Part shown: positions 891-6,973 of the stretch, piece after piece
How the letters are laid out: each line of letters opens with the position of its first letter
Numbering within the stretch: position 1 is the first letter of the stretch
Translations under genes and position numbers: made by a program
Assembly: GCF_014643635.1 (NCBI RefSeq)
Contig: NZ_BMJV01000001.1
Location: 62,001-126,000 of the forward strand
DNA from: Salipiger pallidus
GTDB taxonomy: Bacteria; Pseudomonadota; Alphaproteobacteria; Rhodobacterales; Rhodobacteraceae
Length of the DNA stretch: 64,000 nucleotides
Direction of reading: 5' to 3'
The notes under the pieces: model-generated
Database searches by the model: none
What the model saw: only the letters and a program-made list of their open reading frames with translations
Told to the model about the DNA's origin: nothing

Positions 891-2099
891 GTGGACGGAG
901 CCAATGGGCACCCCACCGGGGAGGACATGCTGATAGACGCCCCATTCGGCGGCGCGTTGCGCGTTGCGCAGGTGGGCTGCGAGATCCGCTCGCCCGTGCG
1001 TGAGCTTGCCCAGCGGCTCGGGCCTGGTCCGTTCGAACTGGTCTGCCTCTTCGCCTCGCCGCAGGCGGATTTCCCGGCGCTGAACCGGGCCGCCAGCACG
1101 GCCTTCGGCACGGCGGACGTCTTTGCCTGCACCACCGCCGGAGAGATCGGCGAAAACGGCTACGAGGATGGCCAGATCATCGCCGTTGCCTTTCCGTCGT
1201 CGCTGTTCAAGGTCGATGCGCTGGTCATTGACGAGCTGGATTCGGTGAATGACAGCAAGCTGATCGACCAGCTGATGCAGCGGCGCCTTACCCTTGGCAT
1301 CGAAGCCCCTGACATGGCGTCGGAATTCGCCTTCCTCATGGTCGACGGCCTGTCCCTTCAGGAAGAGAATGTCGCCACGCTTCTGGCCTCGGCCATGGGG
1401 CCCATGCCGCTGTTCGGCGGGTCCACCGGCGATGGCACCGCCTTTGGCACCACCTGGCTGTCGCACAATGGGTGCATCCGCAGCAACGCCGCGCTTCTGG
1501 CGCTGGTGCGCTCTCGCTGGCAAGTCAAGGTGTTCAGCTTCGACCACCTGCTGCCCACCGAGGTGCGCATGGTCGTCACCGCCGCCGATCCCGGCCGCCG
1601 CAAGGTGACCGAGATCAACGCCGAGCCCGCGGCTCAGGAATACGCCCGCCTGCTGGGGCGTGATCCGGGGCTACTCGATACCTTCACCTTTGCGGCGCAT
1701 CCGGTGGTTGTCCGTCTGGGAGACAGCCACCATGTGCGCTCGATCCAGCGGCTCGATGACGATGGCAACATGGTTTTCTTCTCGGCCATCAACGAAGGCA
1801 TGGTGCTGACCCTTGCTCAGCATCAGGACATGGCCGGCCATCTCGAACAGGCACTGGCAGAACTTGCGAACGGCGGCGAGGCACCAGCTCAGATCCTTGG
1901 CTGCGATTGCGTGCTGCGCCGGGTCGAGGCCGGGCAGTTCCAGAAGACCCGCGAGATCTCGGAAATCCTGACCCGGCACAACGTGGTGGGCTTCAACACC
2001 TATGGCGAACAGTTCGGCGCCCTGCATGTGAACCAGACGCTGACCGGTGTCGCATTCTATGCCCCCGACGGTGAAGAGGATGCAGCGGGATGTCCCTGA
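891..2099 (+). CDS. FIST N/FIST C domain sensor protein (NosP-like)
   Basis: The protein (402 residues from GTG 891, with GGGAGG 9 bases upstream) reads as a FIST domain protein: an N-terminal FIST half with the CTTAGEIGENGY segment near residue 80 and a C-terminal half with the NVVGFNTYGEQFGALHVNQTL segment close to the end. FIST proteins are ligand-sensing partners of signalling proteins; some, called NosP, bind haem and nitric oxide and control a neighbouring hybrid kinase. The gene overlaps the following hybrid kinase by 10 bases, which supports a working pair. There are no signal peptide or membrane segments, so it should be cytoplasmic. The ligand cannot be told from sequence alone. Confidence 0.8.
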   Translation: MDGANGHPTGEDMLIDAPFGGALRVAQVGCEIRSPVRELAQRLGPGPFELVCLFASPQADFPALNRAASTAFGTADVFACTTAGEIGENGYEDGQIIAVAFPSSLFKVDALVIDELDSVNDSKLIDQLMQRRLTLGIEAPDMASEFAFLMVDGLSLQEENVATLLASAMGPMPLFGGSTGDGTAFGTTWLSHNGCIRSNAALLALVRSRWQVKVFSFDHLLPTEVRMVVTAADPGRRKVTEINAEPAAQEYARLLGRDPGLLDTFTFAAHPVVVRLGDSHHVRSIQRLDDDGNMVFFSAINEGMVLTLAQHQDMAGHLEQALAELANGGEAPAQILGCDCVLRRVEAGQFQKTREISEILTRHNVVGFNTYGEQFGALHVNQTLTGVAFYAPDGEEDAAGCP

Positions 2100-4306
2100 T
2101 CAACCCCGCCGACAGCCTCGAGCGGCAAAACGAGAAGCTTATCCGCATTGCCGCATCGCTCATGCGCCACGTCGAACACGGCACCGCGCAGTCGGGCGAG
2201 GCCTATGCCCAGTTCGAACGCGCCGCCCTGCTGGAAAAACGCGTGCGCGAGCGCACCATCGAGCTTGAGCGCACGCTCAACCTGCTGCACGAATCCAACA
2301 GCCAGCTGGCCCGCGCAAATGACGAGACCGAGGATGCCCGCCGCAACCTCGCCGACGCCATCGAAACGGTGTCCGAGGGCTTTGCGCTGTTTGATGGCGA
2401 CGACCGGCTGGTGATGTGCAACTCGCGCTTTTGCCGCGATTTCCGCGATACCGTACGCGACCTGCGCCCGGGGCTGGCCTTTGCCCATTACGTCGAACGG
2501 GTCAGCCGGTCGCGACACCTGTTCCTGCCCGAAGGGATCAGCGCCGCCGAATGGTGCGCCGAGCGTCTGCGTAAGCACGCGGACCGGCGGGCAATGTTCA
2601 ACGTGCGCCATGGTCAGGACCGCTGGCTGCAGGTGTCCGAACACCGCACGGCCAACGGAGGCACGGTCGTGCTTCAGACCGATGTGACGGACCTCATAAG
2701 GCTGGAACGGCAAGAGAGGCTGAAGCTCAAGGACAAGCAGACGCGGATGATCCGCGCCACTCTCGACCATCTCGATCAGGGGGTGTGCATCTTTGATGAA
2801 CACGGGCGGCTCGTGGCCTGGAACGAAAAGACCGGCACGCTGCTGAACCTGCCCGCCCGACGCCTGCATCTCGGGGCATCCTTCGCGGGGCTGCTGGAGC
2901 GTGTGGAACAGGAATTCCGCTTTTCCGACGCTGGTGACCGCGAGGCATTCATCACCTGGGCGGCGCTTGGCGGCCATCGCGGGCCTATCCACTTTGAACT
3001 GATGCGCGACACCGGTGCGATCATCCAGGTCTTTGGCCGTGGCATGCCTGACGGCGGTTTTCTGTTCTCATCCACCGATGTGACCGCCGAACGCGAAGCC
3101 GCGCGCCGCCTGACGGAAGTCAACGAGATGCTCGAGGCGCGGGTGATGGAGCGCACGCTCGAGCTCGAGGACGCGCTGTCGGCGGCCGAGCGAGCCAATG
3201 CCTCGAAATCCCGATTTGTCGCGGCGGCAAGCCATGATCTGCTGCAGCCCCTGTCGGCGGCCAAGCTCTTCATCTCGTCGCTGTCGGACCGGTCGCAATC
3301 ACCCGGCGACCGGGCGGTGCTCGACAAGGCGGAAAGCGCGCTCACCTCTGCCGAGCAGCTGATCGACGCGCTGCTGGACATCTCAAAGCTGGAATCCGAC
3401 GGTCTCAACTTCGACATCCGCCCTGTGGCGCTGCGCGAGATCCTCGGCCCCCTGCGGGACGAGATGGAGGTGCTTGCCGCCCGCAAGGGGCTGCGCCTGC
3501 GCATGGTGGACAGCTCCCTGACGGTCGAGACCGACCCGTCCTACCTGCGCCGCGTGGTCCAGAACCTCGTGGGCAACGCCATCCGCTATACCGCCGAAGG
3601 CACGGTGCTGGTGGGGGTGCGCCGCGCCGGAGGGGCCGCCCGGATCGAGGTCCGCGACACTGGCCCCGGCATTGCCGAGGATGACCAGTCCGCTATCTTC
3701 GAGGAATTTCACCGGCTCGATTCAGGGGCGTCGGCCAATGACGGGCTTGGCCTTGGCCTTGCCATCGTGGAACGCGCCTGTGCGCGGCTGGGGCACCCCC
3801 TTGGTCTCTGGTCCGAGCCGGGGCGCGGGTCGTGCTTCATGGTCAGCCTGCCGGTGCTGGGCAGCGTGGCACCCAAACGCGCCGCCTCGCCCACACCGGC
3901 GCGCCCGGCGGGTCTGGCGCAAGCGGGGCTCATCGTGCTGCTGGTCGAGAACGACCCGCAGCTGCGCCGCGCCATGACGGTGCTGATGGAGAGCTGGGGC
4001 GTCAACGTGATCGAAGCCGAGAACGCCGACGGCGCGCTCGAGCTGCTACAGGATCTGGAGATCACCCCCGATGCTCTGGTGCTTGACTACCAGCTTGGCG
4101 CGGGCATGTCCGGCACCCAGCTCTTCGGCGAGATCACCACGCGGCTGGGGCGGCTTCCTTGCGTCATCGTCTCGGCCGATCGGTCTGTTGCCCTGCGAGA
4201 GGCCTGCGACGGCCTCAGGATCGAGCTGCTAAGCAAGCCGGTGGATCGGCATCGGCTGGGCCGCTTCTTCGATGCGGTCGTGCGAGGCGGCATCGTGGCA
4301 GTGTAG
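2090..4306 (+). CDS. PAS-PAS hybrid sensor histidine kinase/response regulator (NahK-like)
   Basis: A soluble 738-residue kinase without membrane segments. In order: an N-terminal coiled coil (about 40-90), two PAS_7-like domains (about 90-200 and 220-335), a second coiled coil, a HisKA domain with His382 in AASHDLLQPL, a catalytic ATPase domain with the N box VQNLVGNAIRYT, DTGPGI and GLGLGLAI, and a C-terminal receiver (about 617-735) with Asp666 in ALVLDYQLG. The HDLLQPL form of the H box is typical of NahK/ErcS-type hybrid kinases, which pair with FIST proteins. It starts inside the last codons of the FIST gene, so the two are probably translationally coupled. Phosphate probably passes to the LuxR-type regulator encoded two genes upstream. 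Confidence 0.88.
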   Translation: MSLINPADSLERQNEKLIRIAASLMRHVEHGTAQSGEAYAQFERAALLEKRVRERTIELERTLNLLHESNSQLARANDETEDARRNLADAIETVSEGFALFDGDDRLVMCNSRFCRDFRDTVRDLRPGLAFAHYVERVSRSRHLFLPEGISAAEWCAERLRKHADRRAMFNVRHGQDRWLQVSEHRTANGGTVVLQTDVTDLIRLERQERLKLKDKQTRMIRATLDHLDQGVCIFDEHGRLVAWNEKTGTLLNLPARRLHLGASFAGLLERVEQEFRFSDAGDREAFITWAALGGHRGPIHFELMRDTGAIIQVFGRGMPDGGFLFSSTDVTAEREAARRLTEVNEMLEARVMERTLELEDALSAAERANASKSRFVAAASHDLLQPLSAAKLFISSLSDRSQSPGDRAVLDKAESALTSAEQLIDALLDISKLESDGLNFDIRPVALREILGPLRDEMEVLAARKGLRLRMVDSSLTVETDPSYLRRVVQNLVGNAIRYTAEGTVLVGVRRAGGAARIEVRDTGPGIAEDDQSAIFEEFHRLDSGASANDGLGLGLAIVERACARLGHPLGLWSEPGRGSCFMVSLPVLGSVAPKRAASPTPARPAGLAQAGLIVLLVENDPQLRRAMTVLMESWGVNVIEAENADGALELLQDLEITPDALVLDYQLGAGMSGTQLFGEITTRLGRLPCVIVSADRSVALREACDGLRIELLSKPVDRHRLGRFFDAVVRGGIVAV

Positions 4307-4320
4307 TGCACGGTTTTTGT

Positions 4321-5901
4321 TCAGCGCCCTTTGAAGAGCGAGCCGAGGATGCCCCGCACCAGACGTTTGCCGGTGGTGCCTGACAGCTCCTTCAACACCG
4401 CCTGCCCCAGCGCTTCGCCCACTGACTGCGGCGCACTGTAGCGACGCGACGTGGATTTGCCCGAGGTCTGCGCGCGAGACGCAGGATCATAACGGCGGGC
4501 ACGGGAGTATCCGCGCTCGGTGGGGGCTTCAGGCTCCGGCCGGGCCGCCTCGGCTTGCGTTGCGGCGGTCTTGGCGCGGGCGCGTAGCATCTCGTAGGCG
4601 CTGTGGCGGTCCACCGGGGTGTCATAGCGCCCTGCCAGGGGCGAGGCGTCGATCACCGCGCGGCGCTCGTCTTCAGTGATCGGGCCCAGTTGCGTGGACG
4701 GTGGGCGGATCAGCGTGCGCTGTACGATGCCGGGCACGCCCTTCTTTTGCAGCATGGAGGTCACCGCCTCACCAGTGCCCACCTCGCGGATGGCGGTTTC
4801 CGTGTCGAAGGCGGGGTTCGGGCGGTAGGTTTCGGCGGCAAGGCGCAGCGCCTTCCTGTCGCGCGCGGTGAAGGCTCGCAGCGCATGCTGCACCCGGTTG
4901 CCCAGCTGCCCGAGGATGTCCTCGGGAATGTCGTCGGGGTTTTGCGTGACGAAAAAAACCCCGACCCCCTTGGAGCGGATCAGCCGCGCCACCTGTTCGA
5001 CCTTGTCCACCAGCGCCTTGGGGGCGTCATCGAACAGCAGGTGCGCCTCATCGAAGAAGAACACGAGCTTCGGCTTGTCTGGGTTGCCCACCTCGGGGAG
5101 TTCCTCGAAAAGCTCGGACAGAAGCCACAGCAGGAAAGTGGCGTAAAACCGAGCCGATGCCATGAGCTGATCGGCGGCAAGGATGTTGACCTGCCCACGG
5201 CCGTCCGGCGCGGTGCGCATGAGATCCTCCAGCGCCAGCGCGGGTTCACCGAAAAATTCCGTTGCGCCTTGATTTTCCAGCACCAGGAGCCGGCGCTGGA
5301 TCGCGCCCACCGATGCTGTCGAGATATTGCCGTAGCGCAGGGACAACGCCTCGCGGTTCTCGCCCACCCAGACCAGCAGTGCGCGAAGGTCCTTGAGGTC
5401 CAGAAGCGGCAACCCCTCCTCGTCGGAGAGCCGGAAGGCGATGTTGAGAACGCCCTCCTGCGCTTCGGTCAACTCGAGTAGCCGGGCAAGCAGCAACGGC
5501 CCCATCTCGGCCACGGTGGCGCGCACCGGGTGGCCCTGCCGTCCGAAGACATCCCAGAACACCGCCGGGGTGTCATGGTATCGGTAATCATCGAAGCCGA
5601 TGGTGGCGCTGCGGTCCGTGAACGCCCCATGCAGCGGCGCGGTGTCGCGGCCCGCCCGGGCGAGACCGGACAGATCGCCCTTAACGTCGGACAGGAACAC
5701 CGGAACACCGGCGTTGGAAAACCCCTCCGCAAGGATCTGCAACGTCACCGTCTTGCCGGTGCCGGTCGCTCCGGCGATCAGCCCGTGGCGGTTGCCGTAG
5801 TTCAATGAAAGGAACTGCTTTTCCCGGTAGTTTTCGCCACCACCGCCTATAAAAACATCACTGCCCACGGCCGCCCCCCAAGTCTGCACGATGTTGAGCA
5901 T
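4321..5901 (-). CDS. HerA-like DUF853 (YjgR family) ATPase
   Basis: A 526-residue P-loop ATPase of the YjgR/DUF853 branch of HerA/FtsK-like enzymes. Walker A is GATGTGKT near residue 45 and Walker B is [12 protein letters not shown] near residue 280. The C-terminal region is Arg/Ala/Pro rich, then ends in a conserved-looking [14 protein letters not shown] tail. Length agrees with the E. coli relative (about 500). Its cellular role is not well established. The stop lies 15 bases from the stop of the convergent hybrid kinase. ATG 5901 is used; a GTG about 12 codons in is an alternative. Confidence 0.85.
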
Positions 5902-5935
5902 ACATTCTTAACCATTTGATGCCAGTATCCTTTTT

Positions 5936-6017
5936 GTCCAAGGCAACATGTCCTCTCCTGCCTTGGACTGACTTCCTCCCTGTCAGACTGGCCGCGCCTA
6001 CGGGTGCGGCCTTTTTT
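5936..6017 (+). ncRNA. Putative trans-acting sRNA with two anti-SD loops (CcsR/'cuckoo'-like)
   Basis: Three consecutive hairpins stand in a stretch with no gene. Hairpin 1 has perfect 10-base arms, GTCCAAGGCA (5936-5945) and TGCCTTGGAC (5959-5968), and a loop containing TCCTCTCC. Hairpin 2 has arms CTGAC (5968-5972) and GTCAG (5982-5986) around the loop TTCCTCCCT. Hairpin 3 (GGCCGC 5990-5995 with GCGGCC 6006-6011) is followed by six T residues and is an intrinsic terminator. C/U-rich loops complementary to Shine-Dalgarno sequences are the hallmark of the alphaproteobacterial CcsR/'cuckoo' RNAs. The only upstream gene is divergent, so the terminator has no coding gene to serve. The 5' end and promoter are not determined. 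Confidence 0.6.
5990..6017 (+). terminator. Intrinsic terminator of the putative sRNA
   Basis: The stem GGCCGC/GCGGCC is followed by TTTTTT. No plus-strand coding gene ends nearby: the HerA-like gene starts at 5901 and runs the other way. Confidence 0.7.
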
Positions 6018-6052
6018 GCTGCGCGCTCAACGTGGCCGGGCGATAATGGGAG

Positions 6053-6155
6053 TTGACCACCGCATGAGAGTTTCGTAGCGTCCGGGCAATGACAAAGTCG
6101 GCCAGTCCGACAGGGAGCAAGGGGAAAGGGGCCGCGAGGTCCCTTTTCTCTTTTG
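6053..6155 (+). ncRNA. Possible second small RNA ending in a GNRA-capped terminator
   Basis: TTGACC at 6053 and a weak TAGCGT at 6076 (17-base spacer) could form a promoter. Downstream are a hairpin GTCGG/CCGAC (6097-6111) and a 9-pair stem AAAGGGGCC/GGTCCCTTT (6125-6146, one G-U pair) capped by the tetraloop GCGA and followed by TCTCTTTT. This looks like an intrinsic terminator although no gene ends here. The -10 box is poor, so the element could instead be part of a leader of the IalB gene. Confidence 0.3.
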
Positions 6156-6274
6156 TAAAGCGCCCTTGCGACAGATCGCCGAGCCGTGAAGGCAAGGTTT
6201 TTCCCCCCTGACAGCACGTTTCGGCCATGCTACTTGGGCCCTGACGTATGAACATAGTCAAAGAGGAATTTTCC

Positions 6275-6973
6275 ATGAGCAGAAGGCTGAACATGCTCTG
6301 GGCGCTGCCGCTGATGGCAAGCCTGGGTGCCGCACCTGCGCTGGCACAGGACGCGACCGAAGGCGCAGAGGGCGCCACCACCGAAGCGCCCGCAAGCGGC
6401 GACACGGAAGCTCCCGAAAGCGGCGGCACGGAAGCGCCTGCAGGCGGCAGCAACATCGGCGGGCCGCTCTCCATGGGCGAGGCCGAGGGTAACACCGGCG
6501 CAGCCAAGGGTGGTCCCGAGAGCTACATCAAGGAAACCCACGGCGATTGGCAGCTGCAGTGCCTGCGCGTGCCCGAGGGGAGCGATGCGGAAGATCCCTG
6601 CCAGATGTACCAGCTGCTCAAGGATTCCGAAGGCAACAACGTTGCCGAAGTCAGCATGTTCCGCCTGTCGAACGGTGGCCAGGTCTCCGGTGGCGGCACT
6701 TTCGTGGTCCCGCTGGAAACCCTGCTGACTCAGAAGCTGGCGATTTCGGTCGATGGTGGTCAGGCCAAGCGCTATGATTTCTCGTTCTGCACCCGCATCG
6801 GCTGCTACGCGCGTGTCGGCTTTTCCCAAGAGGACATCGCACGGTTCAAGGGCGGCGCGGAAAGCACCATCCGGATCATTCCGGCGCTCGCACCGGACCA
6901 GACGGTCGAGCTGACCATGTCCCTGTCCGGGTTTACCGCCGCATATGACGAAACCACGGCCCTGCGCCAGTGA
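6275..6973 (+). CDS. Invasion-associated locus B (IalB) family exported protein
   Basis: A 232-residue secreted protein. ATG 6275 is chosen because AGAGGA lies 7 bases upstream and the product then begins with a clean Sec signal peptide ending in APALA before QD. A Glu/Gly/Ala/Thr-rich linker follows (about 25-70), then the IalB domain, recognisable from the HGDWQLQC segment, paired cysteines (CLR, DPC, SFC, GCYARVG) and the VPLETLLTQKLAISVDG segment. IalB proteins are periplasmic or envelope-associated; in most free-living alphaproteobacteria the role is unknown. The cysteines suggest disulfides. A bidirectional terminator follows. Confidence 0.85.
   Translation: MSRRLNMLWALPLMASLGAAPALAQDATEGAEGATTEAPASGDTEAPESGGTEAPAGGSNIGGPLSMGEAEGNTGAAKGGPESYIKETHGDWQLQCLRVPEGSDAEDPCQMYQLLKDSEGNNVAEVSMFRLSNGGQVSGGGTFVVPLETLLTQKLAISVDGGQAKRYDFSFCTRIGCYARVGFSQEDIARFKGGAESTIRIIPALAPDQTVELTMSLSGFTAAYDETTALRQ

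Follow-up and report, generated by a model that had tools for sequence, protein, structure and literature searches.

To which family does the small RNA encoded between the HerA-like ATPase gene and the IalB-family gene of Salipiger pallidus belong, and what might it act upon? A sequence-only reading of the 64,000-nucleotide stretch analysed here (the window) had described this segment as a probable anti-Shine-Dalgarno (anti-SD) RNA of the CcsR/cuckoo type. Our analysis points to a two-RNA locus, in which RNA1 (5936-6017) and RNA2 (6088-6154) are transcribed in the same direction, flanked by the divergent HerA-like ATPase gene on one side and, on the other, by the IalB-family gene and then lpxB on the opposite strand (Table 1). 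RNA2, the complementary neighbour of RNA1, is absent from the sequence-only reading; it begins ~70 nt downstream of RNA1 and surfaced as a second conserved unit in the aligned loci. At gathering scores, Rfam gave zero matches in the entire window.

Table 1. Positions in the window, strand and basis of the features of the RNA1-RNA2 locus
Feature	Position	Strand	Basis
herA-like ATPase gene	4321..5868	-	ORF call; Pfam HerA_C, 736.9 bits; start judged by eye from relatives
RNA1 promoter block ATACA..CTTAACC.TT....TGCCAGTAT	5900..5928	+	putative -10 CAGTAT at 5923-5928; function inferred
RNA1, ~82-nt anti-SD sRNA of SorX/SorY type	5936..6017	+	fold, BLASTN, Rfam, compensatory changes; 5' end inferred from putative -10
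RNA1 stem-loop 1	5936..5968	+	10 bp, loop ACATGTCCTCTCC; compensatory changes
RNA1 anti-SD core TTCCTCCCTGT	5973..5983	+	invariant from the second T to the last; first T in at least 90% (28 sequences)
RNA1 segment CTCCCTGTCAGACTGGCC	5976..5993	+	complementary at 17/18 positions to RNA2 6100-6117; sequence, cofold
RNA1 intrinsic terminator	5990..6017	+	9-bp GC stem 5990-6011, then T6 at 6012-6017; compensatory pairs
RNA2 promoter	6053..6081	+	sequence pattern: -35 TTGACC 6053-6058, spacer 17, -10 TAGCGT 6076-6081
RNA2, ~67-nt sRNA, putative SD-mimic/antagonist, likely UdsE/RSs2778 ortholog	6088..6154	+	ends inferred
RNA2 hairpin GTCGG-CCAGT-CCGAC	6097..6111	+	U-A to C-G in 5/26 and to U-G in 3/26 sequences
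RNA2 pairing block AGTCCGACAGGGAG	6104..6117	+	pairs at 14 positions with the SorX and SorY cores of the same genome (one G-U)
RNA2 intrinsic terminator AAAGGGGCC-GCGA-GGTCCCTTT, then TCTCTTTT	6125..6154	+	sequence, alignment; not flagged by a simple terminator scan
IalB-family gene, downstream of RNA2	6275..6973	+	Pfam IalB, 121.8 bits

For the herA-like gene, the GTG at 5868, which by eye matches the starts of its relatives, seems preferable to the longest-ORF start at 5901; the latter falls within the promoter-like sequence of herA itself (5866-5901 of the window, minus strand). Convergent with herA lies an ORF of 738 amino acids (2090-4306, plus strand), which by eye resembles a hybrid sensor kinase with PAS-like repeats and a receiver domain.

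Folding of positions 5900-6030 yielded -50.3 kcal/mol (z = -5.88), equalled by none of 200 dinucleotide shuffles, which confirmed the two hairpins and terminator proposed for RNA1. Stem 1 is a perfect helix (5936-5945/5959-5968, plus strand) with the arms GTCCAAGGCA and TGCCTTGGAC, whereas the second stem has only 4 bp, TGAC/GTCA (5969-5972/5982-5985), closing the loop TTCCTCCCT. BLASTN matched RNA1 in 32 of 61 genomes, counting its own and each of the 19 others sampled from the genus; the weakest matches, such as that of G037, span scarcely beyond the terminator. An alignment of 28 sequences (A2, leaving out L004 and L029) shows no variation in UCCUCCCUGU or in the greater part of the terminator arms. 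Of the 17 consensus pairs, which lie in stem 1 and the terminator, 12 are changed on both sides in one sequence or more, so that the compensatory changes set as a check by the sequence-only reading were indeed found. An intergenic, terminator-ended sRNA gene of the anti-SD type is thus borne out.

In RNA1 the conserved feature is UUCCUCCCUGU, which links stem 1 to the terminator. The second hairpin, a weak one, has no single register: across 107 RNA1-RNA2 loci, nearly all from different genera, GAC/GTC is exact in 40, and 65 can form at least three pairs when the register is allowed to slide. As a family-wide structure, this hairpin was ruled out by that count. A motif of the CCUCU/CCUCC type occurs in the first-hairpin region of only 32 of the 107 loci. 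The arrangement with anti-SD motifs in both loops is present in the window but is not kept across the family. The 13-nt exact target of loop 1, which includes an AUG (AGGAGAGGACATG), is not conserved as an exact target in the 20 genomes of the genus; 19 of the 20 hold it antisense to RNA1 itself, and the five other sites, in five genomes, each precede a different gene.

Upstream of stem 1, the conserved promoter block contains at a short distance a CAnnnT that suits a -10 box, with the A at its second position kept at 1.00 and the T at its sixth at 0.88. This profile was anchored on TTAA (found in 105 of the 107 loci, 101 of which were used), so that the conservation of TTAA itself arises by construction. 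The block overlaps the promoter-like sequence of herA on the minus strand (CTGGCA 5925-5920 and TATGCT 5902-5897, spacer 17). With a model that we built for RNA1, 175 of 198 genomes of the family gave a match at E<=0.001, a count that also includes paralogs caught by the model.

Comparison of RNA1 with Rfam revealed that it is closest to SorX (RF02784), with 29.8 bits (E 4e-5) over model positions 1-73 of 73, below the cut-off of 46.6. It also matched SorY (RF02651) end to end (1-83 of 83) with 20.5 bits, below a cut-off of 111 bits that is so narrow that only one of the 198 family genomes passes it, and mmgR/suhB (RF00519) with 20.7 bits (E 0.086), below the cut-off of 41. Among the nine Rfam matches listed for RNA1, none is a CcsR or cuckoo model, although Rfam may not contain one. 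RNA1 possesses the 5' hairpin, CCUCCCUGU and terminator of the informal SorX/SorY-type group. It shares with SorX of Rhodobacter sphaeroides the layout of hairpin, CUCCCUGU and terminator, and it resembles SorY of that species, an sRNA with its own promoter followed by 5' hairpin, CCUCCCUGU and terminator. Its location between the divergent herA and ialB does not fit the origin of SorX from the ompR-1 3' UTR.

The same genome holds a SorX gene at C2:96136-96206 (84 bits, above the cut-off), a SorY-like gene at C1:168424-168507 (59.2 bits) and a CcsR-like CCTCCTCCC tandem at C1:1078766-1079295. As these are separate loci, RNA1 is, judged by its sequence, a third gene of the SorX/SorY type: a real sRNA of an ordinary kind, and a new paralog. 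An orthologous relationship of RNA1 to either SorX or SorY was ruled out, as better candidates for both lie elsewhere in the genome. The CcsR-like array (loci L323, L325 and L327 of G000) contains at least seven CCTCCTCCC motifs, some of its repeats being nearly identical.

CcsR/cuckoo RNAs carry anti-SD motifs in two hairpin loops. The assignment of RNA1 to them has in its favour the CCUCCC-type core, the hairpin architecture and a host in the same bacterial family as R. sphaeroides, and a pyrimidine-rich anti-SD motif is indeed common to RNA1 and CcsR1-4. However, the tandem array elsewhere in the genome already largely contradicts this assignment, the core of RNA1 lacks CCUCCUCCC, the best-matching models are those of SorX and SorY, and the first-loop motif is sparse among relatives. 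Tandem copies of CCUCCUCCC behind a DUF1127 gene are not found at the RNA1 locus. CcsR1-4 are co-transcribed with ccaF1 and then processed, unlike RNA1, which is a lone gene located elsewhere. Altogether, membership of RNA1 in the CcsR/cuckoo group, as the sequence-only reading had it, appears very improbable.

RNA2 has a promoter pattern of its own, TTGAC-N17-TANNNT, found in 129 of 140 loci (with a spacer of exactly 17 in 126) versus none of 286 control windows; 10 of the 11 loci without it are those whose RNA2 core escaped the strict pattern. The consensus, from an alignment (A3) that left out L004, L019, L024 and L029, consists of a small hairpin, G(U/C)CGG-CC(A/G)GU-CCG(A/G)C, followed by single-stranded AGGGAG and the terminator. 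The RNA2 model matched 179 of the 198 family genomes at E<=0.01 and, counted from the table of matches, 156 at E<=1e-8. The 140 loci represent 140 of these 179 genomes, mostly the best-scoring ones. The strict RNA2 core is present in 130 of the 140 loci, where the upstream RNA1, judged partly by eye, was recognised in 110, degenerate in five and unrecognised in 15, one of which is masked; the other 10 are RNA2 variants, eight with an RNA1-like core upstream. Leaving out the 10 that missed the strict pattern, 18 without CCTCCC upstream and five picked at a wrong or degenerate core gave the 107 loci used above.

Beyond the family, 82 of 289 genomes sampled from the class matched the RNA2 model at E<=0.01, yet only four reached at least 40 bits, all of them of the same family; the best match outside it has 28.6 bits, and many weak matches in this sample cover the terminator alone. 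Convincing matches thus appear confined to the Rhodobacteraceae among the genomes searched. The exact 28-base core occurs in 98 stretches, and the 80 that were listed belong to Rhodobacter, Cereibacter, Tabrizicola, Gemmobacter, Pseudorhodobacter and the like, and to unclassified bins; the search for RNA2 on plasmids gave zero matches. One IMG/VR contig (L426:12583-12603) carries the exact core ~120 bases from its end, perhaps as host DNA in a viral bin. Three genomes (G035, G159 and G086) have six to seven RNA2-model matches each, which could be terminators only or real copies.

The locus could be placed in R. sphaeroides, since the SorX and SorY matches of genome G094 (at 2598225 and 1632645) fall at the positions published for strain 2.4.1 (2,598,224 and 1,632,642), and we took G094 as that strain. 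On the minus strand of its chromosome 1, RNA1 (1426674-1426760) and RNA2 (1426522-1426597) have a catalase gene on one side and an IalB gene on the other; beyond the catalase lies the gene of a LysR-type regulator. The HerA-like neighbour pointed out by the sequence-only reading is thus genuine and divergent in the window, but it is not a fixed partner. The stretch around this pair (L147, ~1.427 Mb) also includes a redoxin gene. With catalase, LysR-type regulator and redoxin genes near, the R. sphaeroides locus appears embedded in peroxide-defence genes.

What RNA2 might bind is suggested by its complementarity. At 17 of 18 positions, its segment GGCCAGUCCGACAGGGAG is the reverse complement of CUCCCUGUCAGACUGGCC of RNA1. 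A run of 14 uninterrupted pairs, one of them G-U, joins AGUCCGACAGGGAG to CUCCCUGUUGGACU in the cores of the SorX and SorY-like genes of the same genome. In R. sphaeroides, the pairing of RNA2 with SorY is the same, whereas that with SorX is bulged. The net cofolding energies of RNA2 with RNA1, SorX and SorY are -15.1, -21.2 and -19.6 kcal/mol in S. pallidus, and -16.4, -21.3 and -19.0 kcal/mol in R. sphaeroides. Of 150 dinucleotide shuffles of RNA2 per pair, one equalled the cofold with R. sphaeroides SorX and none equalled any of the other five. RNA2 thus shows the extended complementarity to regulatory sRNAs, above that of shuffles, expected of a sponge. A whole-genome pattern search, allowing one mismatch in 13 fixed bases, returned 11 sites compared to three for the control, four of the 11 being RNA1, RNA2, SorX and the SorY-like gene.

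The substitutions within the 14-nt block of RNA2 provide what we regard as the strongest sequence argument for this pairing. Across 137 loci (three of the 140 were not found), 106 of 117 changed cells remain pairable with the SorX/SorY core, and 113 of the 117 changes sit where the partner is U or G; this tally counts sequences, not events. G2, U3 and G10-G12, at which any change would break a pair (the partners of G10-G12 being C), are invariant. A9, which lies outside the hairpin, is A in 83 loci and G in 54, and never C or U. The 11 changes that break a pair are seven of the 31 at A1 and four at G14. Positions 4-8 are constrained by the hairpin too, whereas A9, A13 and G10-G12 are not. Taken together, pairing of RNA2 with these cores appears well supported at the sequence level.

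Evidence from coevolution is less clear. In the 107 loci, RNA1 and RNA2 of the same locus bind each other slightly better than partners swapped between loci (mean -36.90 versus -36.36; 0 of 20000 permutations), and shuffled RNA2 cores reach -18.2 +- 3.8 with RNA1. The CTT variant of RNA1 and the AAG variant of RNA2 are associated (8/2/5/92, Fisher 1.6e-7), yet five of 13 AAG-type RNA2 face a non-CTT RNA1, and in L013, L014 and L016-L020 RNA1 has ACUUGCC while RNA2 has GGCCGGU. When 26 genomes chosen for the trait are placed on an rpoB tree (of 30, two had no rpoB match and two more, G075 and G064, were left out), the covariation is not significant (sign test p 0.5-1). The CTT of RNA1 changes six times on this tree and the AAG of RNA2 only twice; in four independent pairs, RNA2 follows RNA1 in one or two, never goes the opposite way, and shows no difference in two or three. 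Because the double change is not significant on the tree, coevolution of the two RNAs is unproven, and covariation was dropped as proof despite the Fisher table.

These results bear on the possibility that RNA1 acts only on mRNAs and that RNA2 is an unrelated sRNA, or a ribosome- or protein-binding RNA, the complementarity being a by-product of conserved G/C-rich cores. The lack of significant covariation on the tree fits such an RNA2, as does its persistence in 14 unmasked loci where, judged by eye, no RNA1 is recognisable; moreover, the hairpin accounts for part of the conserved block, and RNA2 binds the 3' tail of the 16S rRNA with -16.0 kcal/mol when the cost of its own folding is ignored. 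Against this stand the pairing of 14 contiguous bases with SorX and SorY, which recurs in two genera (bulged for R. sphaeroides SorX) and which shuffles hardly ever reproduce, the restriction of A9 to purines with G10-G12 fixed, and the outcome of the pattern search, so that we regard an unrelated RNA2 as unlikely.

The same 14 loci imply that RNA1 cannot be the only partner of RNA2. At E<=1e-8, RNA2 was found in 156 of 189 genomes with a SorX-type match versus none of nine without (Fisher 4e-7, a test that, like the permutation of cognate pairs, ignores phylogeny), and three of these nine do hold a weak RNA2-model match at E<=0.01. The co-occurrence with SorX and the presence of RNA2 without RNA1 agree better with an antagonist of several sRNAs than with one reserved for RNA1.

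RNA2 may be known already. In R. sphaeroides, katE, which is under OxyR control, is RSP_2779; its IalB neighbour is therefore probably RSP_2778, and RNA2 is most likely UdsE (formerly RSs2778), with RNA1 as an alternative, an identification made by name and place (RSP_2778 beside RSP_2779), not by coordinates. The accessible portions of the UdsE reports describe a 5'-UTR-derived sRNA with its 5' end at a transcription start site, confirmed by northern blot, involving RNase E and PNPase, preceded by a promoter that is not of the RpoHI/RpoHII type, and co-transcribed with the downstream gene by RT-PCR. The same portions state no partner, function, sponge role or wide conservation. In the available parts of the sRNA reports on P. 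denitrificans (PMC5107571) and Ruegeria pomeroyi (PMC4809877), no sRNA was mapped to the RNA1/RNA2 locus. No sponge for SorX/SorY was seen in the partial literature searched, to which the original SorX, SorY and CcsR papers did not belong; the one paper there that mentions an sRNA sponge together with SorX and SorY names these two solely among its references.

The co-transcription of UdsE is as compatible with a leader as with a sponge. RNA2 might chiefly be the leader of ialB, to which RNA1, SorX and SorY bind and thereby alter terminator read-through or RNase E cleavage, in turn controlling ialB. The 5'-UTR origin, co-transcript and processing enzymes given in those UdsE excerpts agree with this role, and the IalB gene comes next after RNA2 in both the window and R. 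sphaeroides. RNA2, however, has a strong terminator of its own, after which a promoter-like sequence of ialB (CTGACA...CATGCTA, at about 6208-6232) was recognised by eye, and its pairing block lies outside the terminator stem. A role mainly as leader is accordingly improbable in our judgement.

We therefore lean, with moderate confidence, towards RNA2 as a constitutive Shine-Dalgarno mimic that, from a two-RNA locus, titrates the stress-induced anti-SD sRNAs SorX and SorY and the possibly likewise induced RNA1. RNA1 would be a trans-acting sRNA of the SorX/SorY group, protected by stem 1 and the terminator, and its exposed UUCCUCCCUGU would cover the Shine-Dalgarno regions of the mRNAs that it targets, the mode of action assumed for its relatives. 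RNA2 would be made constitutively from its own near-consensus sigma-70-type promoter; its ACAGGGAG, along with the AGUCCG freed when the small hairpin opens, would imitate a target and base-pair with the core common to RNA1, SorX and SorY. RNA2 would thus function as a standing antagonist, or sponge, setting a threshold above which the stress-induced sRNAs act. From the features of the locus, we infer expression of both RNAs in S. pallidus, pairing in the cell, the antagonism and its direction, constitutive expression, and involvement of RNases or Hfq.

A broader version is more tentative, and we hold it as a possibility somewhat short of an even case: RNA2/UdsE may be a dedicated constitutive mimic that the Rhodobacteraceae have kept since ancient times, chiefly to buffer the whole set of paralogous CUCCCUGU anti-SD stress sRNAs. 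RNA1 and RNA2 would then be an sRNA/anti-sRNA pair, and SorX and SorY would owe their conserved UGUUGGACU extension to pairing with RNA2, not with mRNAs. So far, work on SorX, SorY and their kin has treated each as a stress regulator of its own. A conserved antagonist shared by them and located next to a third paralog would, if true, join them into one network with a set point, explain why the SorX/SorY core is conserved beyond its anti-SD part, and give a function to an RNA already visible on northern blots.

RNA2 and its apparent fit to the whole SorX/SorY group are not described in the literature searched. UdsE was published as a UTR-derived sRNA, whereas RNA2 is here proposed to be an SD-mimicking antagonist. 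RNAs that pair with regulatory sRNAs, as proposed for RNA2, include SroC, SkatA and StsR, the last acting on UpsM. Unlike these, RNA2 would be a neighbouring, separately transcribed and family-wide mimic that serves several paralogous anti-SD sRNAs.
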